Assembly (NCBI RefSeq): GCF_023897065.1
Contig: NZ_JAMHIV010000005.1
Span: forward strand, 186,001-250,000
Length of the DNA stretch: 64,000 nucleotides
Direction: 5' to 3'
Source: Crossiella sp. SN42
GTDB lineage: Bacteria; Actinomycetota; Actinomycetes; Mycobacteriales; Pseudonocardiaceae
The notes beneath the pieces are model-generated. The model had not been told where the DNA came from, did not search any database, and worked only from the letters and a program-made list of their open reading frames with translations. This document shows positions 17,801 through 53,853 of the stretch, in pieces. Position 1 is the first letter of the stretch, and every line of letters starts with the position of its first letter. The translations under genes and the position numbers were made by a program.

Positions 17801-18080
17801 CGGCGTCGTCCAGGAAGCCGCCGACCCTCGGGTAGTCCACCCCGCTGGTCGGCCAGTTCCGGTCGGCGGGCACCGCGGACATGACATCGCGTTCGGACCG
17901 GACCAGCTCCCACAGGTCTTCCGGCCCGCGCACGCCGCCGGGGAACCGGCAGCCGATGCCCACGATCGCGATCGGCTCCCGGCCCTGCGCCTCGAGCTCC
18001 TCGATGCGCTGGCGTGCCCGGCGCAGGTCGACCGTGACCTTGCGGAGGTAGTCGACAACCTTGTCCTGCTGTTCTGGCAT
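1224..18080 (-). CDS. Type I polyketide synthase PKS B, four extension modules
   Basis: The protein has 5618 residues with order: docking helix, KS-AT-(eroded DH)-KR-ACP, KS-AT-KR-ACP, KS-AT-ACP, KS-AT-KR-ACP, C-terminal docking domain. The four modules are described separately. The start at 18080 ([16 protein letters not shown]) is preferred because the docking helix begins there, as in PKS A, and an AGG-type ribosome site lies 8 nt upstream. An alternative ATG at 18116 overlaps the PKS C stop codon (ATGA) and would add 12 residues; it has no properly spaced ribosome site. The reading frame stays open up to 18947, but that part is antiphase to PKS C coding sequence. The C terminus has a helical docking tail ending in a [13 protein letters not shown]-type acidic motif, expected to hand the chain to PKS A. 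There is no thioesterase. The protein probably follows PKS C in the assembly line. Confidence 0.95.
5893..8784 (-). other. PKS B module 3: KS-AT(malonyl)-ACP, no reduction
   Basis: KS (~3099-3518) has [11 protein letters not shown] (~3604-3908) has GHSIGE and HAFH (malonyl type). About 60 residues after the AT end ([13 protein letters not shown]) the ACP begins (~3974-4047, GFDSL), so there is no room for any reductive domain, not even a structural KR half. The module should leave a beta-ketone, which sits between hydroxyls set by B2 and B4 and could form a hemiketal in the product (inference). Confidence 0.9.
8785..12844 (-). other. PKS B module 2: KS-AT(malonyl)-KR-ACP
   Basis: KS (~1748-2168) has [10 protein letters not shown] (~2251-2554) has GHSIGE and HAFH, the malonyl signature. 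No DH is present: the post-AT linker goes straight into the structural KR subdomain. KR (~2754-2931) has the AGGTGGIG nucleotide motif, a VDD motif in the B-type position, Ser/Tyr and YAAAN. The ACP (~3011-3084) reads GFTSL, so the Asp normally before the phosphopantetheine Ser is Thr, while the Ser itself is present. Expected unit: acetate with a B-type hydroxyl. Confidence 0.87.
14867..16050 (-). repeat. Intragenic duplicate block, copy 1 (module B1 AT to DH start); pair of 21601-22784
   Basis: This block encodes the end of the KS-AT linker, the methylmalonyl AT and the first part of the DH. It aligns with PKS C module 2 at a constant offset of 6734 bp with no indel at the points checked (14867, 14911, 14981, 15688 and 16041), including a 56 bp identical run at 15688-15743. 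Inside it, Leu TTG, Val GTT, Ala GCT and Asp GAT appear where neighbouring modules use CTG, GTC, GCC and GAC. Homology fails at the DH active-site motif, where B1 lacks five residues. Confidence 0.85.
16338..16634 (-). repeat. Nine tandem 11-residue repeats in the KS-AT linker of PKS B module 1
   Basis: The encoded linker contains nine in-frame 11-residue units with consensus close to AERLxxxGARG. Examples are [22 protein letters not shown] and [11 protein letters not shown]. The repeat period is 33 bp. The units are imperfect at DNA level, so the array is not a very recent slippage product. The 11-residue period would suit an amphipathic helix (inference). The array stays in frame, and KS and AT on either side look intact. 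Confidence 0.9.
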
Positions 18081-18112
18081 CCGGTGTACCTGCCCGTCGG
18101 CTACAGAGCTCG

Positions 18113-21100: not shown

Positions 21101-24100
21101 CACCGTCTGCAGCGCCGCGTCCAGCAACGCCGGGTGCAACCCGAACCCGGTGACCGAAACCCGTTCCGGCAACGCGACTTCGGCGAACACCTCGCCGTCG
21201 ACGTGCCAGGCCCGGCTGAGCCCACGGAAAGCGGGCCCGTACTCGTACCCGGACGCGGCGGCCTCGTCGTAGAAGGCGGTGAGGTCGATCTCCACCGCGC
21301 CGCTCGGCGGCCACACCGAGCCCAGCCTCTCGGCCGGTTCGGGCGCGCCGGGGGCCAGCACACCGGTGGCGTGCCGGGTCCAGGCGGCGTCGGCCCCGGG
21401 CCGGGCGTGCACGGCCAGCGAACGGCGACCGTCCTCGTCCGGCGCGTCCACCTTGACCTGGACCTCCACCTCACCGTCCAGCACCAGCGGCGCGCCCAGG
21501 ATCAGCTCCTCGACCCGCGCGCAGTCCACCTCGTCACCCGCCCGCACGGCGAGTTCGACAAAGGCGGTCGCCGGCAAGATCGCGGTGCCGTTGACCTGGT
21601 GATCGGCCAGCCAGGGCTGGGTGTTCCCGGACAACCGCCCGGTCAGCACCACCCCGGACCCGTCGCCCAGCGGCACCGCCGCGCCCAGCACCGGGTGGTG
21701 GGTCGCGGTGAGGCCAAAGGCGGAGGCGTCGCCGGAGATGCGCGCCGCGGGCCAGAAACGCTGGTGCTGGAACGGATAGGTGGGCAGGTCGACAACCCGC
21801 GCACCAGACCCGGCGAACCAGCCCGACCAGTCCACCTGACCACCGCGAACCCACCACGCGCCAACGGATTCGAGGAAGCGACGCGCGCCACCCTCGTTGC
21901 GGCGCAACGACCCGGTCACCACACCCTCGACGCCGGCACCGTCCAAAGTGGCCTCAACCTCGGCCACCAGCACCGGATGCGGACTGACCTCGATGATCCG
22001 GTTATGACCGGCCTGGATCAAAGCCTGCATCGAGGAGTGGAAGTGCACCTGCTGCCGCAGATTCCGGTACCAGTAGCCACTGTCCAGCTCTGCGGTGTCC
22101 AGCCAGTCCCCCGTCACCGTCGAGAAGAACGGAATCTCGCCCGACCGAGGCTGGACCGAGGCCAGCACCTGCGCGAGCCCGTCCTCCAACTCTTCGACGA
22201 ACTGCGAGTGCGAGGCGTAGTCCACCGCGATCCGCTTGACCCGCAACTCCTCGGCCTCGGCCGCGGCCACAAACTCCGCCAGCGCCCGCTCCGCACCCGA
22301 CACCACCACGGCCGCCGGCCCATTCACCGCCGCGATCCCAATGCCTTCAGTCAATCGCGGCAGCACTTCCTCAACCGGCAACGCGATCGAAGCCATACCA
22401 CCGCGCCCGGACAACACCCGCGCGATCAACTGCGACCGCCGGGCAACCACCAACGCCCCATCCGCCAACGACAACCCCCCGGCCACCACAGCCGCGGCGA
22501 CCTCCCCCTGTGAGTGGCCGACCACTCCTTCCGGCACAACACCCAGCGACTGCCAGAGCGCGGCCAGCGCGACATTGACCGCCCAGGTCACCGGCTGCAC
22601 AACATCGACCCGGGCCAACAGCTCCCCATCCGCCAAAGCATGAGTGATAGACCACTCAATGTGCGGCGAGAGGGCCTCAGCACACTCGGCGAAGCGGGCG
22701 GCGAAGACCGGGGACTCGTCCAGCAGTTGACGGGCCATGCCGACCCATTGGGAGCCCTGGCCGGGGAAGACGAAGAGCGAGCGGCCGCCGGCGAGGACGG
22801 GGGTGGGTTCGAGCGGGGCGTGGAGGAGGGAAGGCAGCTCGTCGGGGGTGCCCACGAGGACGGACCGGACGGGGAGAGCGGCGCGGGCGGTGGCCAGGGT
22901 GAACCCCGCGTCGACCGCGCTGGCGGCGAGGGCCGAGGGCCGGGCGGCAGGCACACTGGTCGGCTGGTCCGAGGACCTGGCGGCAGGCGCGCTGATCGGA
23001 TGGTCCGCGTGCTCGGTGATGAGGACACCGCCGGTGTGCTCATCGTTCCCGCTGGCGAGCGCACCGACCGAACTGTCCGCGTTTCCGGCAGCGAGCGTAC
23101 TCGCCGATCGATCGGGGCTCGTGGCGACGAGAGCTCCGACCGCACCATCCGCGGTCCCGGCAGCGAGCACACTCGCCGAGCCATCAGGACTCCCGGCGAC
23201 CAAAGCCTCAACCGCACCATCGGCGTTCTCACCGGCAGACGCGCTAGCCAGACGGCCCCCGGTCCCGGCGATCACGTCCGCCAGCCGAACGGCCTGGGCG
23301 CGCACCGCCTCCGCCGACTTCGCCGACAACACCAGCGGCACCACCGCCGGCACCCGCACCGGCTCCGCGACCTCCACCGGAGGCGCCTGCTCAATGATCA
23401 CATGCGCGTTCGTCCCACTGGCCCCGAACGACGAAACCCCAGCCCGCCGCGGCCGATCAACCTCCGGCCACGGCACCGTCTCGGTGAGCAGTTCCACCGC
23501 TCCCGCCGACCAGTCCACATGCGACGAAGGCTCAGTCACGTGCAGCGTCTTGGGCGCGGCGCCGTGTTCCAGCGCCTGCACCATCTTGATCACACCGGCG
23601 ACACCGGCCGCGGCCTGCGTGTGGCCGATGTTCGACTTGATCGAGCCCAGCAGCAACGGCTGTGCGCGGGACTGCCCGTAGACGTCCACCAGCGCCTGGG
23701 CCTCGATCGGGTCACCCAAGGTTGTGCCCGTGCCGTGGCCCTCGACCACATCGACGTCCACAGTGGATAGACCCGCATCAGCGAGCGCGGCGCGGATGAC
23801 CCGTTGCTGGGACGGGCCATTCGGGGCGGTGAGGCCGTTTGACGCGCCGTCCTGGTTGACCGCGGTGCCCCGGACGATCGCCCGGACCCGGTGGCCCAGG
23901 CGGCGAGCGTCCGACAGGCGTTCCAGCACAAGCACTCCCACGCCCTCGCCCCAGCCGGTGCCGTCGGCGGAGTCGGAGAATGCCTTGCAGCGGCCGTCGG
24001 TGGCGAGGCCGGCCTGGCGGGAGAACTCCACGAACAGGCTTGGCGTGGACAGCACCGTGACGCCGCCGACCAGGGCCAGCCTGCACTCGCCGGAGCGCAG

Positions 24101-27100
24101 CGAGCGGGTGCCCAGGTGCAGGGCCACCAGCGAGGAGGAGCAGGCCGTGTCAACCGTGACGGCGGGGCCTTCCAGGCCCAGGGCGTAGGCGACCCGGCCG
24201 GAGGCGACGCTGGGAGCGCTGCCGGTGGACTGGAAGCCCTCGAACTCGCCGCCGCCGAGCAGGGTGGCGTAGTCGCTGTACATGACGCCGGCGAAGATCC
24301 CGGTGTCGCTGCCCTTCAGCGTGCCGGGGTCGATGCCCGCGTGTTCCAAGGCCTCCCAGGAACTTTCCAGCAGCAGGCGGTGCTGGGCGTCGGTGGCCAT
24401 GGCCTCGCGCGGGGACATGCCGAAGAAGGCGGCGTCAAAATTGCCTGCGTCGTAAAGGAAACTGCCGACCCGGGTGTGGGAAGTGCCGAGGCGGCCGGGG
24501 GTTGGGTCGAACAGGCGGGCCAGGTCCCAGCCTCGGTCGGTCGGGAAGTCGGCGACGGTTTCGGTGCCCTCGGCGACCAGGTTCCACAGGTCGTCGGGGC
24601 CTGCCACGCCGCCGGGGAAGCGGCAGGCCATGCCGACGATGACGATGGGGTCGTCGTCCAGGTCCGCGGCTTGTGGGCGCGGGGTGGTGGTCGTCGTCTC
24701 GCGGGGGGTCAGTTCCAGCACGGTGGCCAGGCGGCCCGCGATGGCTTCCGGAGTCGGGTAGTCGAAGGCCAGGGTGGAGCTGAGGGTGGCGCCGGTGGCG
24801 GCGGTGAGCTTGCGGCGCAGCTCCACCGCCATCAGCGAGTCGAGCCCTCGGGACACCAGGGGCTCGTCCACCGGCAGGCCGGCCAGGTCGGTGATGCCGA
24901 GCACCGCGGCCGCCTCGCGCACCACGATGGTGGTCAGCTCGGCGAGCTGGCGGTCCCTGGGCAGTGCCAGCAACCGGTCGCGCAGGGACTCGGGTTCGCC
25001 GGTGTTGCGGGCGGCGGCCTGGCGCGGGGTCAGGCGGACCAGGGTGCGCAGGACCGCGGCGAGGTGGCCGCCCTGCTCGGCCTCCTGCCGCGGTCCGCGC
25101 AGATCGAGGCGAACCGGCACCAGCGCCGGTTCGTCCAGCCGCAGCGCGGTGTCCAGCAACCGCAGGCCTTCGGCGACGGGGAAAGCGACAATGCCCTGCC
25201 TGCGCATGCGGGACAGCTCCGCCGTGCCCAGGTGGCTGGTCATGCCGTCGGAATCGGGCTGCCACAGTCCCCAGGCGAGGCTGGTCGCGGGCAGTCCGGC
25301 CTGGCGGCGCTGCATGGCGAGCTCGTCGAGCACGGAGTTGGCTGCGGCATAAGTGCTCTGGCCCGCGGTGCCGAGGACGCCGGCGGCCGAGGAGAACAGC
25401 ACAAACGCGGTGAGATCGCGGTCGCGGGTCAGCTCGTCCAGGTGCAGGGCGGCGGCCTTGGGCGCGAAGACATTGGCCAGGCGGTCGGCGTCCTGGTCCA
25501 GCAGCAGGCCGTCGTCAAGCACCCCGGCCAGGTGCACCACCGCGGTGAGGTCGGGAATCCCGGCGAGCAGGTCGGCCAGTGCGGCGCGGTCGGTGATGTC
25601 GCAGGCCACGATCCGGGTGTCCACGCCCAGCTTCTCGCGGAGCTCCGGCGCGCCGGGGGCGTCCGCACCACGGCGGGAAGTGAGCACGACCTTGCGCGCA
25701 TTGTGCTGGCGCACCAGGTGTTCGGCCACCGCGGCGCCGAGCTGGCCGGTGCCGCCGGTGACCAGCACGGTGCCGTCGAGGGTGAGCTCGCCGGTGGCGT
25801 CCTCGGTGACCTTGGCCAGGCGGGGTGCGAACACGCCGTCGGCGTTGACCACCAGTTCGGGTTCGTCCAGCGCCAGCGCGGCCTCCGGCACCGGGCCGTC
25901 GACGCCGATCCAGCGCAGCACGCGGTCCGGGTGCTCGGTGCGGGCGGTGCGCAGCAGGCCGCGCACGGCCGCGCCGGTCAGGCCGCTGCCCAGCCAGACC
26001 AGTTCGGCCTCGGGCTGTTCGGTGATGATCCGCTGGACCTTGGTCAGCGCCTCGGCGGTGGCCTGGGTGACCGGGAGGTCCTGGGCGGTGGCGTCCACCA
26101 CGACCCGGTTCGCCGAAGTCGTTGCGCTGGAGGGCAGGGTGACGCGCTGAAGCTCCACGCGGTAGAGGTCCTGGGCGCGGCCGGTGGCCTGGAACTGCTC
26201 GGGTTTGGCCGTGCGCAGGTCGAGCCGCTGCACCCTGGCCACTGGAGCCCCGGTGCCGTCGGCCAGCCACACGGTCAGCCGCCGCCCGCCGGAGGCCGCC
26301 TCGGCCTCTACCCGGACCCGCAGTTCGCTGGCCCCGGTGGCGTACAGCTCGACCCCGGACCACTCGAAGGGCATCTGCACGTGGTCGGCGTCCTGGCCGC
26401 CGTCCGCGCAGGCCCGCATCACGTTCAGCGCGCCGTCCAGCAGCGCGGGGTGCAGCGCGTAGGGTGTGCCGTCCACGTCCTCGGGCAGCCGGACCGTGCC
26501 GTAGCCGACGCCGTCGCGCCGCCACAGCGCGGTGGTGGTCATGAAGCCGGGACCGTAGTCCACACCCTGGTCGGCGAACCGGTCGTAAAGTCCAGTCAGG
26601 TCAACGGGTTCCGCGCCCGGCACCGGCCACTCGCGCAGGTCGGCGAACCCGTCGGCACCGGTGTCCGGCTGCGGGACCTCGCCGAGCTCGCCGGTGGCGT
26701 GCAGGGTCCAGTCCCCTTCGCCGCCAACGGGTTTGCTGTGGATGGCCACCAGCGGACGCCCGTCCACCGGCGGGGTGAGCGAGACCTGGACGCGCACCGC
26801 CGAGTGCTCCGGCAGCACCAGCGGGGAGATCATCACCAGCCCGGCGACCTGGCTGAGCCCGAGTCGCTGGGCGGCTGCGATGGCCAGCTCCATCAACCCG
26901 GTCCCGGCCATCACGATGTGCCCGTGCACCACGTGGTCGGCCAGCCACGGGTGGTCGGCGACGGAGAGCCTGCCCGCGAGCACGTGGCCCGCGCCGCCCG
27001 CGAGCGCCGGTTCCACCATCAGCCAGGGGTGGTCGACCTCGGTGAGCTCCAGCGCGCCACCGGCCGCGGTGGCCTTCGGCGTGACCCAGAACCTGCTGCG

Positions 27101-29830
27101 CTGGAACGGATACGTCGGCAGGTCGATCACCCGCGGCCGGTGTCCGGCGAACACCGCGGCCCAGTCGACCTCCACGCCGTGCGCGTGCGCCTCGGCGAGC
27201 CCGGTGAGCACGGCCTCGGCCTCTGGCCGGTCCCGGCGCTGCGCGGCGATCACCGCGACCCGTTGGCGGGCCTCGGCCACGCAGTCGCCGACCATGGCCG
27301 CACCGGAACCGTCCGGGCCGAGTTCCAGGAAGCGGGTGACCCCGGCCTCCAGCAGGGTGGTGACGCCCTGGGCGAAGCGCACGGTGGAGCGGACGTGGCT
27401 GACCCAGTAGCCGGGGTCGAGCACCTCGGCGCTGATCAGGCCGCCGGTCACGTTGGACACCAGGCCGATCTCCGGTTCGCGCGCGGTGGCCCTGGCGGCG
27501 ACCGCGGCGAACTCGGGCAGCATCGGCTCCATCAGCGGCGAGTGGTAGGCGTGGTCCATGGCCAGCCGCTTGACCTCGCGGCCCTCGGCGAGAAGCTGTT
27601 CGGTGGCCTGCTCGATGGCCTCGACGGTGCCGGAGAGGATCACCGAGTTCGGCCCGTTGACCAGTCCGGCCACCAGCTCGTGCTCGCGGTTCTCCAGCAG
27701 CGGCAACAGGTCCTGCTCGGCGGCGCGGACCGCGAGCATCGCGCCGCCCGGCGGCAGCGACTGCATCAGCTGGCCACGCGCGGCCACCAGCGCACAGGCG
27801 TCCTCAAGCGACCAGACCCCGGCGACGTGTGCCGCGGCGAGCTCGCCGGTGGAGTAGCCGAGCACGTAGTGCGGGGTGACGCCCCAGGACTCGACCAGCC
27901 GGTAGAGCGCGACCTGGAAGGCGAACAGCGAGGGCTGGGTGAAGCCGATCTGGTTGAGCAGCGCGGCTTCCGGGGTGTCCGCGGGCGCGAAGGTGATCTC
28001 GCGCAACGGGCGGGGCAGCAGCGGGTCCAGGTGTGCGCAGACCGCGTCGTATGCCTGGGCGAAAGCGGGGAATGTGCGGTACAGCTCGGCGCCCATGGCC
28101 GCACGCTGAGCGCCCTGGCCGGGGAAGACGAAGGCGGTCTTGCCGGGCAGCACCGCGCCGGTGACCACGCCGGGGGTGGGTTCGCCGGTGGCGATGGCGC
28201 GGAGTCCGGCGAGCAGCTGTTCGGTGTCGGCGCTGATCACGGCGGCGCGGCGCTGGTGGCGGGCGCGGGTGGTGGCCAGGGACCAGGCGAGGTCGACGGG
28301 CCGGGCGGTGGCGGCGGTTTCGGCGAGGTTGGTGGCCTGGGCGCGGAGGGCGGCCTCGGTGTGGCCGGAGAGCACCACGGGCACGAGCGGCGCGCCTTCG
28401 GGCACGGCGGCGAGCGCGGCGCGTGCGGGCTCGTCCGTGGCGGATGCGGGTTCCGGTGCCGGTGCCTGTTCCAGGATCATGTGCGCGTTGGTCCCGCTGA
28501 TCCCGAACGCCGAGATGCCGGCCCGGCAAGGCCGATCCCCCGCCGCCAGCTCCCGGTGCTCGGTGACCAGGCTGATCCCGCCGGTCGACCAGTCCACCCG
28601 GCTGCTCGCCGTCTCCGCGTGCAGCGTCCGCGGGGCTTCACCCCGCCGCAGGCTCTCCACGACCTTGATGAACCCGGCGACCCCGGCCGCGGCCTGGGTG
28701 TGCCCGATGTTGGACTTCACCCCGCCCAGCAACGCCGGTTCGCCGCCCGCGTGCGCCTTGCCGTAGGTGGCCAGCAGCGCATGCGCTTCAATCGGGTCAC
28801 CGAGGCGGGTGCCGGTGCCATGCGCCTCCAGCAGGTCCACCTCGCCGGCGTCCACCCCGGCGTCGGCCAGCGCGGCGCGGATGACCCGCTGCTGCGAGCT
28901 GCCGTTGGGCGCGCTCAATCCGTTGGACGCGCCGTCGGAGTTGACCGCCGAGCCGCGGATGACCGCCAGGACCTGGCGGCCCTGGGCCAGTGCTTCGGAC
29001 AGTGGTTGCAGCAGCACCAGGCCGCTGCCCTCGGCGAAGCCGGTGCCGTCGGCGTCCTCGCTGAACGCGCGGCAGCGACCATCCGGCGACAGCCCGCCCT
29101 GGCGGGAGAACTCGATCAGCAGCTGCGGCCCGGCCATCACCGTCGCGCCACCGGCCAGCGCCAGTGAGCACTCGCCTGCGCGCAGCGCGCGGACCGCGTT
29201 GTGCAGCGCCACCAACGAGGACGAGCACGCGGTGTCCAGGGTGACCGAGGGGCCTTCCAGGCCGAGCACGTAGGAGATCCGGCCCGCGAGCACGCTGGCC
29301 GCGCCGCCGGTGAGCGCGTGGCCCTCGGAGTCGCCGCCCGCGGTGGTGAGTCCGGCGTAGTCCTGGCCGTTGGTGCCGATGTAGACGCCCACGTCCTTGC
29401 CGCGCAAGGACTCCGGCACGATGCGGGCGCGTTCCAGTGCCTCCCAGGCGTTCTCCAGCAGCAGCCGCTGCTGCGGGTCCATGGCCAGCGCCTCGCGTGG
29501 GGCGATGCCGAAGAAGGCCGGGTCGAACTCGGCCGCGTCGCTGAGGAACCCGCCTGCTCGCGCGTACAGCGTGCCGGGGTGGTCCCGGTCGGGGTGGTAG
29601 AGGCCGTCCAGGTCCCAGCCGCGGTCGCCGGGCAGCGGGCCGATCGCCTCCTCGCCTGCCGCCAGCAGCCGCCAGAAGTCCTCCGGGGAGTTGATGCCGC
29701 CGGGGAAGCGGCAGCTCATCGCGAGCACCGCGATCGGTTCGCTCGACCGGGCGCGCTCCTCGCGCAGCGCGTTCAGCTCGCTGGTGGCCCGCTTGAGGTA
29801 CTCGCGCAGCTTCTGTTCGGTCGCCGTCAC
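18113..29830 (-). CDS. Type I polyketide synthase PKS C, two extension modules (the second fully reducing)
   Basis: The protein has 3905 residues: docking helix, KS-AT-DH-KR-ACP, KS-AT-DH-ER-KR-ACP, C-terminal docking domain. The GTG start at 29830 overlaps the PKS D stop codon (GTGA) and has a strong GGAGG site 5 nt upstream; the docking helix ([19 protein letters not shown]) begins right there. The N-terminal helix should receive the chain from PKS D, whose tail ends in an ELFDLID motif. PKS C itself ends in a very similar EELFDLID tail, to pass the chain to PKS B. Its stop lies 32 bp before the preferred PKS B start. The tight coupling and order D-C-B-A suggest colinear use. It has the only complete DH-ER-KR set in the window. 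Confidence 0.95.
21601..22784 (-). repeat. Intragenic duplicate block, copy 2 (module C2 AT to DH start); pair of 14867-16050
   Basis: This is the counterpart of the module B1 block at a constant +6734 offset. The 56 bp identical run is at 22422-22477. The copy ends at an intact DH active-site motif, so C2 is the better-preserved member. The unusual codon set seen in B1 (Leu TTG and related) occurs here too, which shows the codon bias belongs to the block rather than to one gene. Confidence 0.85.
23045..23224 (-). repeat. 24-residue tandem repeat in the KS-AT linker of PKS C module 2
   Basis: Two full 24-residue units and a 12-residue partial third are encoded. Each unit begins ADGAVxALVAxSPD (the third [11 protein letters not shown]), followed in the full units by [10 protein letters not shown]-like residues. 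The period is 72 bp. The sequence is unrelated to the 11-residue array of module B1, although both stand at the same place, between KS and the duplicated methylmalonyl AT block. A longer low-complexity insertion continues on the AT side. Confidence 0.8.
24665..29830 (-). other. PKS C module 1: KS-AT(atypical)-DH-KR-ACP
   Basis: KS (~29-454) has [11 protein letters not shown] (~564-878) is unusual: the nucleophile motif reads GYSTGE instead of GHSxGE, and the specificity motif reads HAYH instead of HAFH; the active-site Ser is kept. Overall it resembles malonyl ATs. DH (~957-1204) has HxxxG with the catalytic His, but Ala where Pro is usual. It has YGP and the catalytic Asp in [10 protein letters not shown], so it is plausibly active. 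KR (~1354-1534) has [11 protein letters not shown] and YAAAN. ACP (~1621-1694) has GLDSL. Expected outcome is an alkene from a malonate-like extender. Confidence 0.82.
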
Positions 29831-32800
29831 GTATTCCTCCGGCTCATGGTGATGCTGTCGATGAGGTCGAACAGTTCGTCGTCGGAGACGTCCGCCATCG
29901 GCTCGGCGGCCGGGGCTTCTTCCGGCGCGGACTCGTCCAGGTCGAGCTGGTCCAGCAGGTGTTCGGCCACCGCGGCTGGGGTCGGCTGCTCGAAGACGAG
30001 CGTGACCGGCAGGCGCACCCCGGTTTCAGCGCCGAGCCGTTTGCTCAGGTCGGCGCCGGTGACGCTGTCGATGCCGAGGTCGCGGAAGGTCCTGGTCTCC
30101 TCCGGCCGGTCGCCGCGCCGGTAGCCGAGCACGGCGGCGGTGTGCCGCAGCACCACGTCGAGCACCAGCTCCGCGCGGCGGCGGGCGGGCAACGAGGCCA
30201 GCCGGTCAGCCAGGTCTGGCTCGGTCGCGTTTTCCGTTGCGCCACTGGACTTGCGAGCATCCGGCAGGTCAGCCAGCAGCGGGCTCGGGCGCAGCGCGGT
30301 GAGGGTCGGGGCGAACCGCTCCCACTTGATGTCGGCCACCACCTGGCTGGCCCGGCCCCCGTCGATGGCTTCCTGCAAGGCTTTCAGCGCGAGCTCGGGG
30401 GCCATCAGGTTGATGCCGTGGCGTTCCAGGGTCGGGCGGACCGCGGTGGTGGCCAGGCCGTCGCCGTCCCAGGCGCCGAAGGAGACCGCGGTGGCGGGCA
30501 GGCCCTGGGCGCGGCGGAGCTCGGCCAGGGCGTCCAGTGCGGCGTTGGCCGGGGCGTAGTTGCCCTGGCCGGGGATGCCGACGGTGGCGCCGAGCGTGGA
30601 GAAGAGCACAAACGCGGACAGGTTCTGCTCGGCGGTCAGCTCGTGCAGGTGCCAGGCGCTGACCACCTTGGCGCGCTGGGCTTCCGCGACCTGCGCCAGG
30701 CTCAGCGCGCGCAGCGGGGAGTCGGCCAGCACGGCGGCGGTGTGCACCACCGCGTCCAGCTCGCCGACCCGCGCCAGCAACTCGCGCACCTGGTCGCGGT
30801 CGCTGACATCGCAGGCCTCGATCCGCACGTCCGCGCCCAGCGCGGCCAGCTCGGCGTGCAGTTCCGCGGCACCCGGCGCGGCCGGGCCGCGGCGGCTGAC
30901 CAGCACCAGTTCGCGGGCGCCGCGTTCGGCCAGCCAGCGGGCCACGTGCGCGCCGAGCGCGCCGGTGCCGCCGGTGACCAGCACGGTGCCCTTGGGCCGC
31001 CACTCCCCCGCCTCCGCGCGGTGTGCCGCCGGTCGGACCAGTCGGCAGGCCAGGGTGCCGAAGGGCCGCAGCGCCAGCTGGTCCTCGCCGTCGGTGCGGG
31101 TGAGCGCGGCGGCCAGCTGCCGCCAGCTGCCCTCGCGCGGCTCGGCGGGCAGGTCGATCAGGCCGCCCCAGCGGTCGTGGTGCTCGTGCCCGGCCACCCG
31201 GCCCAGGCCCCACACCATGCGCTGGTCCGGCCGGACCTCGCGGTCGCCGGGGTCGGTGATCATCGCGCCGCTGGTCACGCACCACAGCGGCGCGCCGATT
31301 CGGGCATCGCCGAGTGCTTGCAGGGCAAGGAGAGTGGCCGCGTACCCGGCTGGCACACCGGGGTGGTCCACCCGCTCGCCAGGGATCAGCGCGAGCAGGG
31401 AGAGCACGCCGGTGACGTCGGCGGGAACCGCGGCGGCGCAGGCAGTGGCCAGTTCGTCGCGACCGGGGTGGTGCTCGCACTCCACCGCGACCAGCCGCAG
31501 GCCCTGCCGAGTCAGGCCGGACACCGCGTCGGTCCAGGGACCTTCACCCTTGGGCACCAACACCAGCCAGCTGCCGGTGGCCGTGCGCGCCGGGTCGGCC
31601 ACCGCGCGCCAGGCGGTGGCGTAGCGCCAGTCCTCGATCAGCCTGGCCGCGTTCTCCCTGCGGTGCCAGCCGGCCAGCGCGGACACCAGCTCGGGCAAGG
31701 TCGCGCTCTCGGAGACCGCGAGCAGGCGTTGCAGGGACTCGACATCGGCCTGGTGCACCAGGCGCCAGAACGCCTCGGACTCCGGCTTCGCGGTCGTGGT
31801 CGCGGGCGAGGTGGTCTCCAGCCAGTAGCGCTGGTGCTGGAAGCGGTAGGTGGGCAGGTCGACCAGGCGGGCGCCGGGGTAGTCCCAGCGCACCGGCAGG
31901 CCGTGCGCGTGCGCCTGGCCCAGCGAGGTCAGGAACCGTTGCGGGCCACCGTCATCGCGGCGCAGGCTGCCGAAGGCGAGCACGTCCGGACCGGCGTCCT
32001 GGATGCCCGCGGTGAGCACCGGGTGCGGGCTCACCTCGATGAAGGTGCGGTGCCCCGCCTCGATCAGCGCGGCCACGGTGGCCTCGAACTCCACCGGGGA
32101 GCGCAGGTTGTCGTACCAGTAGGCGGCGTCAAGGCCGAGGGTGTCCAGCGGTCCGGCGGTCACCGTCGACCAGAAGGCGGCCTCGGCGGTGCGCGGACGG
32201 ACCGGGGCCAGCGCGGTAAGCAGCTCGCCGCGGATGGCTTCCACGTGGTCGGAGTGCGAGGCGTAGTCCACCGGCAGGTGCCGGGCGCGCACGCCGTCGG
32301 CCTGCACCTTGGCCACGAACTCGTGCAGGGCCTGGGGATCGCCGGAGATCACGGTGGCGGCCGGGCCGTTGGCCGCGGCCAGCGACAGCCTGCCGTCCCA
32401 TTCGGTCAGCCGGGCCAGCGCCTCGGCCCTGGGCAGCGTGGTGGAGACCATGCCGCCGTGCCCGGCCAGCGCCTGCGCGATCTCCTGCGAGCGCAGGGCG
32501 ACGATCCGGGCACCGTCCTCAAGGGACAGTGCGCCGACCGCGCAGGCGGCGGCGATCTCGCCCTGGGAGTGCCCGACCACCGCGGCCGGGCGGATGCCGT
32601 GCGCGGACCACAGCGCGGCCAGCGAGACCATCACCGCCCACAGCGCGGGCTGCACCACATCGACCCGGCGCAGCGCCTCCTCATCACCCAGCGCCTCGGT
32701 CAGCGACCAGTCCACGTACGGCGTCAGGGCTCGCTCACACTGCGCCAGCGCCTCGGCGAAAACCGGTGTGCTGTCGGCGAGTTCCAGTGCCATGCCCACC

Positions 32801-35796
32801 CACTGCGAGCCCTGGCCGGGAAAGACCAGTACCGGCCCCGGCCCGGCCTGCGCCCGGCCGACCACCAGTCCCGGCGCGTCCTCGCCCGCGGCGAGCGCGG
32901 ACAGGCCGTCCAGCAGGTCCCGCCGGTGGCCCACCACCACGGCCCGGTGCTCGAACGCGGTCCGGGTGGTGGCCAGCGACAGGCCGATGTCCGCGACCCC
33001 CAGTGCGGGCGCGGATTCGGCGTGTGCGCGCAGGGCTGCGGCCTGGGCGCGCAGTGCGGACGGGGATTGCGCCGACAGCGGCCAGGCCACCGGCTGCCCG
33101 GTGTCCCCGCCCCAGTCGACGTCGACACCCTCTGTCCACAGTAGACCGAGCAGGTCGGTGAGGGTCTCGGTGCCGGGCCGGTGCCGGCGGCAGGTGGCGA
33201 GCACCTCGGTGTCCAGGGTCCGGCCGATCGGGACGCGCAGCACCGGGTGCGGGCTGACCTCCACGATCCGGCAGCCCGGCGGCAGCGCGCGGACCGCGTC
33301 GACCAGGCGCATCGGCTGGCACATGTTGCGCGCCCAGTAGGCCCCGTCCAGCTCGGTCCCGGCCAGCTCGCCGCCGGTGACGGTGGAGAGGAACGGAATC
33401 CTGGTGGCGGCCGGGCGGATGTCGCTGAGCAGCTCGGTCAGCTCGGCGGCGAGAGCGGCCAGTTCGCGGCTGTGCGAGGGGTAGTCGATGGCCACCCTGA
33501 CCGCGCCGATCCCGGCCTCGGCCAGCTCCTGCTCAAAGTCGTCGATCGCCGCGGTGGCACCGGAAACGCACACCTGTCCCGGCGAGAGCTCACCGGCCAC
33601 GGTCAGCCGGTCACCGGCCTGCCTGGCCGCTTCCGCCACGTCCAGGTCGCAGACCAGCACGGTCCCGGTGCCGGAGGCGCGCTCCGCGATCAGCCGGGAC
33701 CACCGGCCGATGACCTGAGCGCCCTGGGCCACGGTGAGCGCACCGGCGGCCACCGCGGCGGCCACCTCGCCCACGCTCTGCCCGAAGACCACCTCCGGCG
33801 TCACGCCACGGGCGGCCAGCGTGCGGAACAGCGCGACCTGCACCGCGAACAGCGCGGGCTGCACCACATCGGCCCGCTCCAGTCGCCGCTCCTCCAGCAG
33901 GTCGGCCAGCACCGACCGGCCGAGCACCGAAGTCAGCTCGCCGTCCACTTCGGACATGGCGGCGCGGAACTCCGGTTCGGTCAGCAGGTCCCGGCCCATG
34001 CCGGTCCACTGGCTGCCGTGGCCGGAGAAGCAGAAGGCCAGCGCGGGCGCGGTTTCAGCCACGCCGACCTCGGCCAGCGCGAGCAGGTTGACCAGGTCGG
34101 CGGGCCGCTCCAGTGCGGCAAAGGCGCGGTGCGGGCCGGATCCGGTGCTCAGCACGGGTGCCAGCGGACCCCTGGCCGTGGCCGCGATGCTCTTCCACAG
34201 CTCTTCCGCGGTGTCCGCGCCCAGTGCCACCAGGGTACGGGGGCTGGCGGGCGCCTGGCCCAGCGCGAGGTGCACGTTGGTGCCGCCGAAGCCGAAGCCG
34301 CTCACCCCGGCGTACCGGTGCCCGGCGGGCCAGGGGCTGCGGGCGGTCACCACCTGGAGCTGTTCGGCGGCGAAGTCGATGTTCGGGTTGGGCTCGTCGA
34401 AGTGCAGGCTGGCGGGCAGTTCCCCGTGGTACAGCGACAAAGCGGTCTTCATCAGGCCGAGCACGCCGGCGGCCGGTTCCAGGTGGCCGAAGTTCGTCTT
34501 GGCCGAGCCGATCCGCAGTGGTTCGGCGCGGCCGGGGCCGAACACCTCGCCGAGCGCGGAGGTCTCGATCACGTCGCCGAGCTTGGTCCCGGTGCCGTGA
34601 GCCTCCACATAGGACACTTGACCGGTCGGTACCCCGGCCTCCTGCCAGGCCGAGCGGAGCACGTCGACCTGGGCTTCGGGGTTGGGCGCGGTGAGGCCGT
34701 TGGAGGCGCCGTCGTTGTTCATCGCGCTGCCCAGCAGCACCGCGTAGACCCGGTCGCCGTCCCGCAGCGCGTCGGAAAGCCGCCGCAGCACAACGACTCC
34801 GCAGCCCTCGCTGCGCACGTAGCCGTTGGCGCCGGCGTCGAAGGCGCGACACTGGGCGTCGGGGTTGACGCCGCCGAACTTGGTCATCGCGACCGTGGTG
34901 TGCGGGTGCAGCATCAGGCTGATGCCACCGGCCAGCGCCAGGTCGGACTCGCCGCGGCGCAGGCTGTGCGCGGCCAGGTGCACCGCGGCCAGCGAGGAGC
35001 TGCACGCGCTGCCCACCGACACCGCGGGCCCTTGCAGGCCAAGGGCGTAGGCGACCCTGGCCGGGATGATCGAGGTGTCCCAGCCGACCGCGGACTGCGA
35101 GCCCACCGCGTTCGGGTCCGCGCCGGTGGCCAGGTAGTACTCCTGCCACATGGTGCCCAGGAAGACGCCGGTGCGGCTGCCGGTCAGGCCGCCGGGCACG
35201 ATCCGGGCGTCCTCCAGCGCGGACCAGGCCACCTCCAGGGTGATCCGCTGCTGCGGGTCGGCGTGCTCGGCCTCGGCGGGGGACATCCGGAAGAAGGCCG
35301 CGTCGAACCCGGCCACGTCGTCCAGGAAACCGCCGCGGCGGGTGGTGGTCTTGCCGGGGCTGGTGACGTCGGCGTCGTACCACTCCTCGGCGTGCCAACG
35401 GTCCGCGGGCACCGGCCCCACCGCGTCCACCTCGGCCAGCAGCGCGTCCCAGAGCTGACCGGGCGAACCGATGCCGCCGGGCAGCCGGCAGCCGAGGCCG
35501 ACGATCGCGATCGGCTCGTGCCGCGTCGCCTCGGCGGCCTGGCTCGCCCGGCCGGTCGGCCTGCCGTCCAGGAACGCCGCCAGCGCGGCCACCGTCGGGT
35601 GCCGGTAGGGCGCCCAGGCTGGCACCGGACGACCGAGTCGCCGGGACAGCTCCTGGGTCAGCCTGGTCAGCCCGGCGGAGTCGGCGCCGAGCTCACGTAG
35701 CGCCACCTCCACCGGCAGCGCGTCCGCTGGTGTGCCCAGCAGCGCAGCCGCGGCACTCCGCACGTGTGACAGACACGTATCAGCCTCACTCCGCAT
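29827..35796 (-). CDS. Starter-type polyketide synthase PKS D: ACP-KS-AT-AT-KR-ACP
   Basis: The 1989-residue protein starts with an ACP (~3-80, LGADS motif) and has no N-terminal docking helix, as expected for the first protein of an assembly line. A KS follows (~93-519, Cys in GSACSSSL, His in EAHGTGT, and a GFGFGGTN segment unlike the other KSs). Then come two ATs in tandem. AT-a (~589-889) has GQSVGE, Trp in the position of the carboxylate-binding Arg, and YPSH. AT-b (~986-1303) has GHSQGE, ALRSQ and YASH, typical for methylmalonyl. KR (~1600-1786) has TGGTGALG, an LAD motif and Thr in the catalytic Ser position. ACP (~1880-1946) has GIDSV, then an acidic docking tail (DELFDLID). Inference: AT-a loads a monocarboxylic starter on the N-terminal ACP, and KS/AT-b/KR/ACP form extension module 1. 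The ATG at 35796 is chosen for its AAGGTGG site 5 nt upstream. Confidence 0.93.
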   Translation of the reverse strand: MRSEADTCLSHVRSAAAALLGTPADALPVEVALRELGADSAGLTRLTQELSRRLGRPVPAWAPYRHPTVAALAAFLDGRPTGRASQAAEATRHEPIAIVGLGCRLPGGIGSPGQLWDALLAEVDAVGPVPADRWHAEEWYDADVTSPGKTTTRRGGFLDDVAGFDAAFFRMSPAEAEHADPQQRITLEVAWSALEDARIVPGGLTGSRTGVFLGTMWQEYYLATGADPNAVGSQSAVGWDTSIIPARVAYALGLQGPAVSVGSACSSSLAAVHLAAHSLRRGESDLALAGGISLMLHPHTTVAMTKFGGVNPDAQCRAFDAGANGYVRSEGCGVVVLRRLSDALRDGDRVYAVLLGSAMNNDGASNGLTAPNPEAQVDVLRSAWQEAGVPTGQVSYVEAHGTGTKLGDVIETSALGEVFGPGRAEPLRIGSAKTNFGHLEPAAGVLGLMKTALSLYHGELPASLHFDEPNPNIDFAAEQLQVVTARSPWPAGHRYAGVSGFGFGGTNVHLALGQAPASPRTLVALGADTAEELWKSIAATARGPLAPVLSTGSGPHRAFAALERPADLVNLLALAEVGVAETAPALAFCFSGHGSQWTGMGRDLLTEPEFRAAMSEVDGELTSVLGRSVLADLLEERRLERADVVQPALFAVQVALFRTLAARGVTPEVVFGQSVGEVAAAVAAGALTVAQGAQVIGRWSRLIAERASGTGTVLVCDLDVAEAARQAGDRLTVAGELSPGQVCVSGATAAIDDFEQELAEAGIGAVRVAIDYPSHSRELAALAAELTELLSDIRPAATRIPFLSTVTGGELAGTELDGAYWARNMCQPMRLVDAVRALPPGCRIVEVSPHPVLRVPIGRTLDTEVLATCRRHRPGTETLTDLLGLLWTEGVDVDWGGDTGQPVAWPLSAQSPSALRAQAAALRAHAESAPALGVADIGLSLATTRTAFEHRAVVVGHRRDLLDGLSALAAGEDAPGLVVGRAQAGPGPVLVFPGQGSQWVGMALELADSTPVFAEALAQCERALTPYVDWSLTEALGDEEALRRVDVVQPALWAVMVSLAALWSAHGIRPAAVVGHSQGEIAAACAVGALSLEDGARIVALRSQEIAQALAGHGGMVSTTLPRAEALARLTEWDGRLSLAAANGPAATVISGDPQALHEFVAKVQADGVRARHLPVDYASHSDHVEAIRGELLTALAPVRPRTAEAAFWSTVTAGPLDTLGLDAAYWYDNLRSPVEFEATVAALIEAGHRTFIEVSPHPVLTAGIQDAGPDVLAFGSLRRDDGGPQRFLTSLGQAHAHGLPVRWDYPGARLVDLPTYRFQHQRYWLETTSPATTTAKPESEAFWRLVHQADVESLQRLLAVSESATLPELVSALAGWHRRENAARLIEDWRYATAWRAVADPARTATGSWLVLVPKGEGPWTDAVSGLTRQGLRLVAVECEHHPGRDELATACAAAVPADVTGVLSLLALIPGERVDHPGVPAGYAATLLALQALGDARIGAPLWCVTSGAMITDPGDREVRPDQRMVWGLGRVAGHEHHDRWGGLIDLPAEPREGSWRQLAAALTRTDGEDQLALRPFGTLACRLVRPAAHRAEAGEWRPKGTVLVTGGTGALGAHVARWLAERGARELVLVSRRGPAAPGAAELHAELAALGADVRIEACDVSDRDQVRELLARVGELDAVVHTAAVLADSPLRALSLAQVAEAQRAKVVSAWHLHELTAEQNLSAFVLFSTLGATVGIPGQGNYAPANAALDALAELRRAQGLPATAVSFGAWDGDGLATTAVRPTLERHGINLMAPELALKALQEAIDGGRASQVVADIKWERFAPTLTALRPSPLLADLPDARKSSGATENATEPDLADRLASLPARRRAELVLDVVLRHTAAVLGYRRGDRPEETRTFRDLGIDSVTGADLSKRLGAETGVRLPVTLVFEQPTPAAVAEHLLDQLDLDESAPEEAPAAEPMADVSDDELFDLIDSITMSRRNT
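29836..29840 (-). promoter_or_regulatory. Strong ribosome binding site of PKS C inside the PKS D 3' end
   Basis: The minus strand reads GGAGG 5 nt before the GTG at 29830. It lies within the last codons of PKS D and shows that C is translated from the same transcript, probably by translational coupling through the GTGA overlap. Confidence 0.8.
33130..34030 (-). other. Probable starter-loading AT (AT-a) embedded between KS and extender AT of PKS D
   Basis: The domain has the AT opening motif FSGHGSQW and a nucleophile motif GQSVGE (Gln instead of His before Ser). It reads GRWSRL where extender ATs have xLRSxx or xRRSxx, so the Arg known to bind the free carboxylate of malonyl-type substrates is replaced by Trp. 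Loading ATs that take monocarboxylic CoAs commonly lack that Arg. The specificity motif is YPSH rather than YASH or HAFH. The fold appears complete in length (~300 residues). The actual starter acid cannot be read from the sequence. Confidence 0.75.
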
Positions 35797-35928
35797 CCGG
35801 ACCACCTTGCCGCCGTGAATCAGGGGATTCCCGAGGCGACGGTACAAACGGCGAACTGCGGATTCCCCCAGACAGAGCGGTCGGAATCTCTAGCAAATTC
35901 CGGGCTGCCCGCCCCCCACCCTGTGGGC
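35797..35928. promoter_or_regulatory. Divergent intergenic region between PKS D operon and glycosyltransferase operon
   Basis: These 132 bp separate the starts of PKS D (minus) and the glycosyltransferase (plus), so promoters for both directions are expected here. The region is less GC-rich than its surroundings (for example AAATTCC and GGTACAAACGG). The octamer GGATTCCC occurs twice as a direct repeat, at 35825-35832 and 35860-35867. A possible -10 for the plus strand is TAGCAA near 35891, and one for the minus strand lies near 35841-35848 (TACCGT). Both are weak matches and no -35 is convincing. Confidence 0.5.
35802..35808 (-). promoter_or_regulatory. Ribosome binding site of PKS D
   Basis: AAGGTGG stands 5 nt before the ATG at 35796. 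It decides that start over an in-frame TTG at 35847, which has no comparable site. Confidence 0.75.
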
Positions 35929-37329
35929 ATGGCAGAGCTCGCTGAGCACCCGCGGAAGCCGATCATGCTGGTCAGCCTGCCCGCGGCCGGCCTGGCCAAC
36001 CCGATGCTGGTGCTGGCGGGTGAACTGGCCCGGCGCGGCGTGCAGGACGTGTTCTTCGCCAGCGACGAGCCCCGGCGCGCCGACGTCGAGGCGCTGACCG
36101 CGGCCAGCAAGATCGAGTTCATCTCCCTCGGCGAACCGGTGCCCGAGCTGTCGCCCACCACCTGGGACGAGCCGACCTACCGGGCGGTCACCCAGCCGTC
36201 GCGGTTCAAGGCCTTCCGCGCGTTGCTGCGGCACAACTTCAAGCCCGAGATCACCGTCCCCAAGTACCAGGCGCTGGCGGCCGCGGTCGAGCAGCACCGG
36301 CCCGCGCTGATGGTGATCGACGTGATGTGCAAGCACGCCATCGACCTGGCCATCACCAAGGGCATCCCGTACGTGCTCAGCTGCCCGTTCGTGGCCAGCA
36401 ACATCGTCAGCCTGGTCACCCCGTTCGGCAAGTCCTACACCCCCAAGGACTTCCCGACCCCGCGGTCGGCCCTGCCGTACCCGATGACGGCTAGCCAGCG
36501 GCTGCGCAACCAGCTGTTCCGCTGGCGCACCCTGCTGCACTTCCTCAACCCGGAGACGAACAAGCGGGTCCAGGCCCAGGCCAAGATCCGCGCGGAACTG
36601 GGCATCTCCGCCGAGACCACCAAGTCGCTGGCCGCCTTCGAGCAGGCCGAGCGGGTGCTGTGCTACTCGCTGCCGGAGCTGGACTACCCGTTCGACGTCC
36701 CGGACAAGTTCACCTTCGTCGGCGCGATGGTGCCGCCCCTGCCACAGGCGCCGGCCGACGAGCTGACCGACTGGCTGGACGGCCGGGATTCGGTGGTGTA
36801 CATGGGCTTCGGCACCATCACCCGCCTCACCTCCTCCGATGTGGCCGCGCTGGTCGAGGTCGCACGTCGGCTGGACGGCGAGGCCGACGTGCTGTGGTCG
36901 CTGCCCAAGTCCCAGCAGCCGATGCTGCCCGCGGACCTGCCGCCAAACCTGCGGGTCGAGGGCTGGGTGCCCTCGCAGCTGGACGTGCTGGCCCATCCCA
37001 GCGTCAAGGTCTTCGTCAACCACGGCGGCGGCAACGCCTTCCACGAGAGCGTGTTCTTCGGCAAGCCGCAGGTGGTGCGACCGCTGTGGGTGGACTGCTA
37101 CGACCAGGCGGTCCGGGTGCAGAGCATGGGCCTGGGCCAGGCGGTGGACCGCCCCGCGACGATCGACGCCGACGACCTCACCGGCAAGGTGCTGCCGGTG
37201 CTGACCGAGCAGTCCTACACCGAACGTTCCCGGCGGTTCGCCGCCGCGATGTCCAAGGCCGGTGGCCGGGCGGCCGCCGCCGACGCTCTGCTGTCCCTCC
37301 CGCAACTCACCGAGACGAGCAACGCATGA
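35929..37329 (+). CDS. GT1-family glycosyltransferase (UDP-glucuronosyl/glucosyltransferase type)
   Basis: The 466-residue protein probably transfers an activated sugar to the polyketide in the cytoplasm. It has a GT-B layout: an N-terminal acceptor half starting LPAAGLANPMLVLAGELARR, and a C-terminal donor half with HGGGNxxxES, then a P-L-W-V-D-x-Y-DQ segment (about residues 360-400), the nucleotide-sugar binding signature of UGT-like enzymes. An oddity is that the usual GHxNP at the N terminus reads GLANP (Leu22), so the His that acts as general base in many GT1 enzymes is missing. The start at ATG 35929 is likely, with GTG 35923 an alternative; a further upstream in-frame GTG at 35815 would overlap the PKS D promoter and 5' end. 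The stop overlaps the next start (ATGA at 37326), so the aminotransferase is co-translated. It may glycosylate the finished polyketide; its partner sugar is probably the aminosugar implied by the next gene. Confidence 0.88.
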   Translation: MAELAEHPRKPIMLVSLPAAGLANPMLVLAGELARRGVQDVFFASDEPRRADVEALTAASKIEFISLGEPVPELSPTTWDEPTYRAVTQPSRFKAFRALLRHNFKPEITVPKYQALAAAVEQHRPALMVIDVMCKHAIDLAITKGIPYVLSCPFVASNIVSLVTPFGKSYTPKDFPTPRSALPYPMTASQRLRNQLFRWRTLLHFLNPETNKRVQAQAKIRAELGISAETTKSLAAFEQAERVLCYSLPELDYPFDVPDKFTFVGAMVPPLPQAPADELTDWLDGRDSVVYMGFGTITRLTSSDVAALVEVARRLDGEADVLWSLPKSQQPMLPADLPPNLRVEGWVPSQLDVLAHPSVKVFVNHGGGNAFHESVFFGKPQVVRPLWVDCYDQAVRVQSMGLGQAVDRPATIDADDLTGKVLPVLTEQSYTERSRRFAAAMSKAGGRAAAADALLSLPQLTETSNA

Positions 37330-38384
37330 GCTACCGGTACCACGTCTCCAAGCCGGTCCTGTCCGGGCGCGAGCTGGAGTACGTCACGGACGGGATCCAG
37401 CGAGGGTGGATCTCCTCGCTGGGGCCGCACGTGCGCCAGTTCGAGGAAGCTTTCGCCAGCTACAACCAGATGTCCAGCGCGGTGGCCTGCTCCTCCGGCA
37501 CGGCCGCGCTGACGCTGGCGCTGCGCGCACTGGGGGTCGGCCCAGGCGATGAGGTGATCGTCCCCGAGTTCACCATGATCGCCTCCGCCTGGGCCGTCAC
37601 CTACACCGGAGCCACCCCGGTGTTCGTCGACTGCGCGGACGACCTGAACATCGACGTCACCAAGATCGAAGAGAAGATCACCCCGCGCACCAAGGCGATC
37701 ATGCCGGTGCACATCTACGGCCGCCGCTGCGACATGGACCCGATCATGGAGCTGGCGCACGAGTACAACCTCCGCGTGGTCGAGGACTCCGCGGAGTCCC
37801 ACGGCGTCCGCCCGGTCGCGCACATCGCGGCGTTCTCCCTGTACGCCAACAAAATCATCACCAGCGGCGAGGGCGGCATCTGCGTCACCAACGACCCGGT
37901 GCTGGACGCCCAGATGCGCCACCTGCGCGGCATGGCCTTCAGCCCCGACCACTCGTTCCTGCACCGCAAGCTGGGCTACAACTTCCGGATGACCGACATG
38001 CAGGCCGCGGTCGCCCTGGCCCAGACCGAGCAGCTGGACACCTTCCTGGCCGCCCGCAAGGAGATCGCGGCCCGCTACGACGAGGGCCTGGCCGGTATCG
38101 AGGGCATCACGGTCATGCCGCCCCGCGACGTGCTGTGGATGTACGACGTGCTGGCCGAGGACCGGGAGTCGCTGCGCGCACACCTGGCCGCCGAGGGCAT
38201 TGAGACCAGGCGGTTCTTCAAGCCGATGAGCCAGCAGCCGCAGTACTTCGACCCGGAGTGGCCGAAGCTGAACGCGGCCAAGTACGCGGCTTCCGGGTTC
38301 TACCTGCCGACGTACGTGGGGCTGACGGCGGAGGACCAGGAGTACATCGTGGGCAAGGTGCGGGAGTTCTACCAGAAGCGCTGA
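37326..38384 (+). CDS. DegT/DnrJ/EryC1-family PLP aminotransferase, perosamine-synthase-like (NDP-4-keto-6-deoxyhexose 4-aminotransferase)
   Basis: The 352-residue protein is a fold type I sugar aminotransferase. Lys176 in the YANKIITSGEGG motif is the PLP Schiff-base lysine. This motif, the GYNFRMTDMQAAVALAQ segment and the C-terminal TRxFFKPMSQQP region match RfbE/perosamine synthase type enzymes, which aminate C4 of NDP-4-keto-6-deoxy sugars using glutamate. VVEDSAESHG (about 151-160) holds the PLP-ring Asp. Between this and the lysine the protein is about nine residues shorter than usual, lacking the typical VGSFGD turn. The start is set by the ATGA overlap with the glycosyltransferase. 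The pair suggests a 4-amino-4,6-dideoxyhexose on the product. The exact sugar and nucleotide are not shown, and no other sugar genes are in the window. Confidence 0.85.
   Translation: MSYRYHVSKPVLSGRELEYVTDGIQRGWISSLGPHVRQFEEAFASYNQMSSAVACSSGTAALTLALRALGVGPGDEVIVPEFTMIASAWAVTYTGATPVFVDCADDLNIDVTKIEEKITPRTKAIMPVHIYGRRCDMDPIMELAHEYNLRVVEDSAESHGVRPVAHIAAFSLYANKIITSGEGGICVTNDPVLDAQMRHLRGMAFSPDHSFLHRKLGYNFRMTDMQAAVALAQTEQLDTFLAARKEIAARYDEGLAGIEGITVMPPRDVLWMYDVLAEDRESLRAHLAAEGIETRRFFKPMSQQPQYFDPEWPKLNAAKYAASGFYLPTYVGLTAEDQEYIVGKVREFYQKR

Positions 38385-38613: not shown

Positions 38614-53849
<15,236 letters not shown>

Positions 53850-53853
<4 letters not shown>

Follow-up and report, generated by a model that had tools for sequence, protein, structure and literature searches.

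Crossiella sp. SN42 PKS D, a candidate tandem-acyltransferase starter module with the domain order ACP-KS-AT-AT-KR-ACP

The window analyzed here, a stretch of 64,000 nucleotides that corresponds to positions 186001-250000 of contig NZ_JAMHIV010000005.1 (C45) in the 9.7 Mb genome of Crossiella sp. SN42, holds part of a polyketide synthase (PKS) cluster comprised of eight PKS genes with 5, 3, 1, 2, 4, 1, 4 and 1 modules, 21 in total. The first of the single-module genes, PKS D, occupies 29827-35796 of the minus strand (window coordinates are used throughout unless prefixed with C45) as a single open frame, from an ATG start to a TGA stop, for a protein of 1989 residues. An earlier note on this DNA had read the product as an acyl carrier protein (ACP), a ketosynthase (KS), two acyltransferases (ATs), a ketoreductase (KR) and a second ACP, and a Pfam domain search agrees, returning PP-binding twice, one KS in its N- and C-terminal parts, Acyl_transf_1 twice (E 1.3e-153, a whole-protein value) and one KR. 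Judged from its sequence, PKS D is a well-supported new example of the known tandem-AT starter design of the soraphen/myxothiazol/miuraenamide/JomP1 type, comprising the starter and first extension module and, as far as motifs and gene content indicate, the sole loader recognized in the 21-module cluster.

ACP1 (residues 1-75; 35572-35796), located by Pfam and motif, has its serine in LGADSAGL and is predicted to carry the starter acyl group; by eye, nothing ahead of it resembles a docking helix. The KS that follows (residues 92-521; 34234-35523; Pfam and motifs) is of the condensing type, with the active-site Cys (VGSACSSS) and both His motifs (EAHGTGT and KTNFGH) in place. AT-a (residues 571-860; 33217-34086), predicted from motifs, alignment and tree to be a starter AT, possesses GQSVGE around Ser674, a YPSH motif and, by alignment, Trp699 (TGG codon at 33700-33702) in place of the carboxylate-binding Arg. 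It is separated from AT-b by a second, full linker of the KS-to-AT type at 32842-33159, with CurL-like and RhiE-like linker matches in Pfam (residues 906-971). AT-b (residues 989-1300; 31897-32832; Pfam, alignment and tree) has GHSQGE, the Arg and YASH, and is a predicted methylmalonyl extender AT; behind it, but not behind AT-a, lies the post-AT linker motif LPTYRFQHQRYW (residues 1314-1325; 31822-31857). The KR (residues 1603-1777; 30466-30990; Pfam) and ACP2 (residues 1876-1950; 29947-30171) complete the protein, which ends in an acidic C-terminal tail that resembles a docking element by eye. All of these features share the minus strand, and the GxDS serine is present in both ACPs. The slices that we picked for PKS D were ACP 1-75, KS 93-522, AT-a 571-860, AT-b 989-1300, KR 1599-1790 and ACP 1876-1950. 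The KS lacks the Gln for active-site Cys that defines KSQ loaders, and no AT stands directly before the N-terminal ACP as in a canonical loading didomain.

Relatives of the ACP-KS-AT-a portion occur in three of the four other genomes of the genus (96, 81 and 81% identity), within open frames of 2011-2020 residues, while the fourth, G002, has just a 47% match of a different kind. A near-full-length relative is present on five Streptomyces plasmid records (58.5-59.0% identity, 97% covered), and the complete domain order of PKS D was read in both plasmid relatives that were inspected as well as in L045 from Crossiella sp. S99.2, which is among the three genomes of the genus with a match. An assembly error in PKS D is therefore unlikely, given the open frames in the genus and the same order in L045 and the two plasmids.

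For comparison across genomes, we scanned with an AT-a alignment and two peptide patterns from the AT-a of PKS D and took the best 80 of 368 confirmed loci, which is a selection rather than a census. Tandem ATs were found in 20 of those 80 loci (16 actinobacterial, three from Myxococcota and one from Acidobacteriota), the actinobacterial genera being Crossiella, Amycolatopsis, Actinophytocola, Saccharopolyspora, Streptomyces, Actinokineospora and Micromonospora.

The two ATs of PKS D differ at the column of the carboxylate-binding Arg, which we take to be that of FabD Arg117 and which is occupied by Arg in 21 of the 22 aligned ATs of the cluster and by Trp in AT-a alone. The Arg falls in the same column in five HMMER alignments to solved extender ATs. 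An Arg of the AT contacts the malonyl carboxylate, according to an excerpt of PMC12199272. Across the 20 tandem loci the AT-a column reads W 15, R 3, L 1 and Q 1, with Trp in 15 of the 16 actinobacterial rows, and AT-b has Arg in all 17 rows long enough to be read (three are too short). Single ATs have Arg in 66 of 68 cases, and the two with Trp, L056 and L057, are both AT-a domains cut by contig ends. As a control from the same genome, 23 of 25 ATs on seven other contigs have Arg; a C13 protein of a different kind has Phe, and Trp occurs once, in the loading AT of a C15 protein with the order AT-ACP-KS. The AT-ACP loaders L157 and L162 likewise possess Trp, so that it is found in all three of the AT-ACP loading didomains read. 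Both KSQ loaders, L163 and L165, retain Arg, as expected for ATs that use dicarboxylic units; of the four KS-AT-ACP rows, only these two have Gln in the KS, Cys being present in L164 and no pattern match obtained for L167. The loss of Arg from AT-a points to a domain that is very probably a starter (non-dicarboxylate) AT. AT-b is most likely a methylmalonyl extender AT, given its GHSQGE, Arg and YASH motifs and its grouping with the YASH-type extender ATs of the cluster; a motif rule quoted in the available part of PMC10646177 assigns YASH to methylmalonyl.

Phylogenies place AT-a and the KS in lineages of their own. A careful AT tree of 90 rows was built after removal of all rows of L067, L135, L138, L139, L140, L097, L109 and L137 and of some plasmid extender ATs, and in it the AT-a domains form a clade of 25 rows (22 tandem, two contig-cut and one free-standing AT) with support 100/99, a value that holds without the L067, L135 and L140 rows. 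The clustering of AT-a with extender ATs, which the earlier note had named as evidence against a starter role, is not seen in this tree. The 19 AT-b rows are divided between seven HAFH malonyl-type domains and twelve placed in a set that contains methylmalonyl-type ATs, and a single AT-b clade is rejected by the approximately unbiased (AU) test (p-AU 3.5e-75). In the KS tree, 27 tandem rows (25 different) and two contig-cut rows constitute one group, with a Shimodaira-Hasegawa-like approximate likelihood ratio test (SH-aLRT) value of 97, which stands apart from the 20 other KS domains of the cluster and includes the Myxococcota modules L063, L070, L104, L135 and L140. Over 21 modules, KS distances correlate more strongly with AT-a distances (r 0.92) than with AT-b distances (0.63); within the 15 actinobacterial modules the values are 0.73 and 0.77, so distances alone fail to show that AT-b has been exchanged more than AT-a in actinobacteria, and the claim rests on the tree.

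These results would fit an old starter cassette of KS and AT-a, common to Actinomycetota and at least some Myxococcota (L063, L070 and L104) and not derived from AT-ACP loading ATs, in which case Trp would have arisen separately in both kinds of starter AT, AT-b would be exchangeable between malonyl and methylmalonyl types, and AT-a might be a plug-in unit of linker domain (LD) and AT movable between synthases. We put this forward tentatively, giving it slightly less than half of our credence; AT-a rows from Myxococcota and Acidobacteriota that the clade does not include count against it. If AT-a is indeed detachable, it would be a candidate for engineering changes of the starter unit. The free-standing AT of the clade belongs to L136, a 553-residue frame of Streptomyces sp. 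CB02400 (G519:C8:176042-176989) whose contig also encodes a tandem-AT PKS; it possesses the Trp, has GASIGD in place of GQSVGE, and may represent a starter AT that has become detached or has decayed. In L135 (G742) the tandem ATs are mutual neighbors in the first tree, and tandem ATs may thus also arise by local duplication.

The linkers distinguish the two ATs as well. A short LD precedes AT-a and a full one precedes AT-b, and the post-AT motif is absent behind AT-a in PKS D and in all 20 tandem loci. Behind AT-b the motif is present in PKS D and in 16 of the 20 loci (13 by pattern and three, L049, L070 and L104, as variants), the other four ending before it, at a contig end in L052, L054 and L058 and by a frame break inside AT-b in L055. 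With this linker pattern, AT-a resembles an additional LD-AT unit inserted behind the KS and ahead of an ordinary LD-AT-linker block. An AlphaFold2 model of KS-AT-a-AT-b, limited to 1200 residues and ending before the post-AT-b linker, gives good AT domains in an unsure arrangement (mean predicted local distance difference test score 82.1, predicted template modeling score 0.48). Its LD-AT-a matches the solved AT 8jpu (Z 51.1, 2.0 Å over 378 residues), while KS-AT didomains among the matches listed align to the model at a root-mean-square deviation of about 22-26 Å.

We consider it very likely, on the strength of domain order, intact catalytic motifs, the loss of Arg in AT-a alone, the lack of another recognized loader and the placing of KS and AT-a in tandem-AT lineages, that PKS D both starts the assembly line and performs the first extension, with AT-a loading ACP1 and AT-b charging ACP2. 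AT-a would accept a monocarboxylic acyl-coenzyme A (CoA) and transfer the acyl group to ACP1, from which the KS would take the starter; AT-b would load ACP2, most likely with methylmalonyl, and after condensation by the KS and reduction by the KR the diketide would pass to PKS E, the next gene (18113-29830, minus strand, two modules). These transfer steps, the ACP served by each AT, the monocarboxylic nature of the starter and the order from PKS D to PKS E are inferred. The transfer order is supported by the first KS and AT of PKS E, which group with those of the gene directly after the tandem-AT gene on the plasmids of S. canus and S. durmitorensis (SH-aLRT 100 and 98), and the scheme has precedents in print, as MiuA has been read in the same way and so has JomP1 where its starter step is concerned.

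Several observations weigh against this scheme. In AT-a the His of GHSxG is replaced by Gln and the NGP motif is without its Asn, so activity of the domain is unproven by sequence. Three non-actinobacterial tandem AT-a domains, those of L067, L070 and L104, retain Arg, and its loss is accordingly not a mark of every tandem module. In the first tree, which retained long-branch rows, the AT-a domains of L067, L135 and L140 are not part of the AT-a clade. Finally, the JomP1 precedent is a module regarded as loading only, although the AT-b of PKS D shows no such defect as judged by its motifs only. The L070 and L104 domains, both from Enhygromyxa salina, combine GQSIGE with Arg, which may reflect dicarboxylate loading or a state that preceded the loss of Arg.

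Other readings of the locus are less probable to differing degrees. The earlier note held that a loading AT had moved into module 1, and AT-a does share Trp with the canonical loaders, while a lone ACP remains at the N terminus of PKS D as if an ordinary AT-ACP loading AT had been shifted from before it. A tree that holds AT-a and the three canonical AT-ACP loaders together as one clade is nevertheless rejected (p-AU 0.011, log-likelihood 46 lower; only three such loaders entered the test, the C15 protein of this genome included, and an earlier tree with one of them preceded it), and the tree places these loaders among methylmalonyl-type ATs in a set of 29 rows. We regard the relocation as improbable and retain only the other part of that proposal, a tandem-AT starter module whose AT-a, with Trp for Arg and in a cluster with no other recognized loader, is the probable loading AT. 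More doubtful still is an inactive or structural AT-a with ACP1 charged in trans, as the available text of PMC8944477 assumes where an azalomycin-type loading ACP stands alone at the N terminus. The lone ACP is compatible with trans loading, and the change of GHS to GQS and the loss of NGP in AT-a would suit it, but GQS[VI]GE in 19 of the 20 tandem AT-a domains and 50 invariant columns across 17 AT-a rows would be unexpected of dead domains; moreover, one AMP-binding (CoA-ligase) motif pattern found no match in C45:140-285 kb, and none of the C45 matches listed is a discrete AT.

A position of PKS D in mid-line would require the chain to be started by PKS A or by a protein encoded beyond the contig. 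PKS A (C45:239850-262634, five modules; its C-terminal part at 53850-63998 of the window) and PKS B (38614-53853, three modules) do lie upstream on the same minus strand; each, however, opens with an N-terminal docking helix (by eye) followed by a Cys-type KS, which is not the make-up of a loader, whereas PKS D opens with an ACP. Indeed, all seven other PKS proteins of the cluster open with a docking-like helix (by eye) and a KS, PKS D alone being without the helix, the active-site Cys is present in all 21 KS domains, and no loader other than PKS D was recognized in C45:140-285 kb; a separate loading protein in the cluster was another finding that, by the earlier note, would have overturned its reading. 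We give the mid-line position hardly any weight, and just as little to the two ATs serving one step with alternative units. That arrangement has been proposed for Kid13, whose two ATs, like those of PKS D, share a starter protein and both influence the primer according to an excerpt of PMC10646177; Kid13, however, is AT-KSQ-AT-ACP without an N-terminal ACP, and the AT-a of PKS D lacks the Arg that extender ATs have. The same excerpt names further dual-AT loaders that do possess an N-terminal ACP.

The closest parallels to PKS D are described systems with the same domain string. MiuA, the miuraenamide synthase of the myxobacterium 'Paraliomyxa miuraensis', is ACP-KS-AT-AT-KR-ACP, and the portion of PMC10051162 available to us proposes its first AT as an acetyl loader, with the KS between this AT and its ACP; the likeness to PKS D is one of description. 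The same text names soraphen, myxothiazol, myxalamide and chondramide for this loading type, which bears out the mention of soraphen as a tandem-AT system in the earlier note, and soraphen, myxothiazol and myxalamide are also named alongside JomP1 in an excerpt of PMC6117699. These four modules are likened to PKS D by description, whereas the Myxococcota modules L063, L070, L104, L135 and L140 were compared with it by sequence. JomP1, the jomthonic acid synthase of Streptomyces caniferus, is ACP-KS-AT1-AT2-KR-ACP (PMC6117699), a string identical to that of PKS D and likewise from an actinomycete, again compared by description; as excerpted there, its authors regard AT2 as inactive and the module as loading only, with StiA of stigmatellin as its closest relative. 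A limited search of the open-access literature found no account of AT-a phylogeny or of the Trp signature in tandem modules. The actinobacterial modules constitute a conserved set for studying how a single KS cooperates with a pair of ATs and a pair of ACPs, and the one-residue Arg/Trp test, which in the present comparison sets tells starter ATs apart from extender ATs, may aid genome mining for starter modules that standard didomain rules overlook.

Close AT-a domains are rare in the sampled genomes. They were found in six of 120 genomes of the family at E 1e-75, including the genome itself and one of the same species (up to 17 candidates scored per genome), and in one of 396 of the phylum at 1e-65, which is the genome itself (up to five candidates). 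The rarity of the architecture in actinomycetes that the earlier note had supposed is borne out only in part, as most of the tandem loci in the selection above are actinobacterial and JomP1 has the identical string. At a cut-off of E 1e-86, a profile search in the phylum of Enhygromyxa gave matches in three of 235 genomes (up to nine candidates scored per genome), none of which was identified as a named myxobacterial producer. Elsewhere in the Crossiella sp. SN42 genome, C41 (L029) encodes a PKS that opens ACP-KS-AT with a single AT in a 2398-residue frame; its KS region is 52% identical to the KS of PKS D, and matches of the same kind occur in all five genomes of the genus searched (G001-G004 among them). 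L164, on a plasmid of Embleya sp. NBC_00888, reads KS-AT-ACP-KS-AT-AT-ACP with a Cys-type first KS and is perhaps another dual-AT arrangement.

The last PKS gene of the cluster has a thioesterase-like end by eye. Ten accessory proteins, a subset of those present, were searched, and all but one gave matches: a P450, a YCII protein, a DegT aminotransferase, an aldo/keto reductase, two glycosyltransferases, a GDP-mannose dehydratase, an asparagine-synthase-like protein and a thioesterase. Between PKS B and PKS D, the plus strand holds a macrolide-type glycosyltransferase and a DegT-type aminotransferase at 35815-38384, which, together with the GDP-mannose dehydratase at C45:278071, suggests mycosamine. 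The sugar genes at C45:262778-270130, of which the methylase and the 2,3-dehydratase were recognized by eye, agree in order with those that the available part of PMC8944477 assigns to the Crossiella cryophila methylpentaene cluster (4-aminotransferase, methylase, glycosyltransferase, 3-ketoreductase, glycosyltransferase, 2,3-dehydratase), and by gene order the two clusters are probably orthologous; that text says nothing of a starter module. The aculeximycin cluster likewise has eight PKS genes and 21 modules, and it lacks a recognized loader, as far as the excerpt of PMC4210621 describes it; we rejected this identity because its first genes, with three modules each and a fully reducing first module, do not fit and the methylpentaene gene order fits better. 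The PKS F frame (1224-18947) is over-called at its 5' end, and its docking helix starts some 290 residues in, past the end of PKS E.

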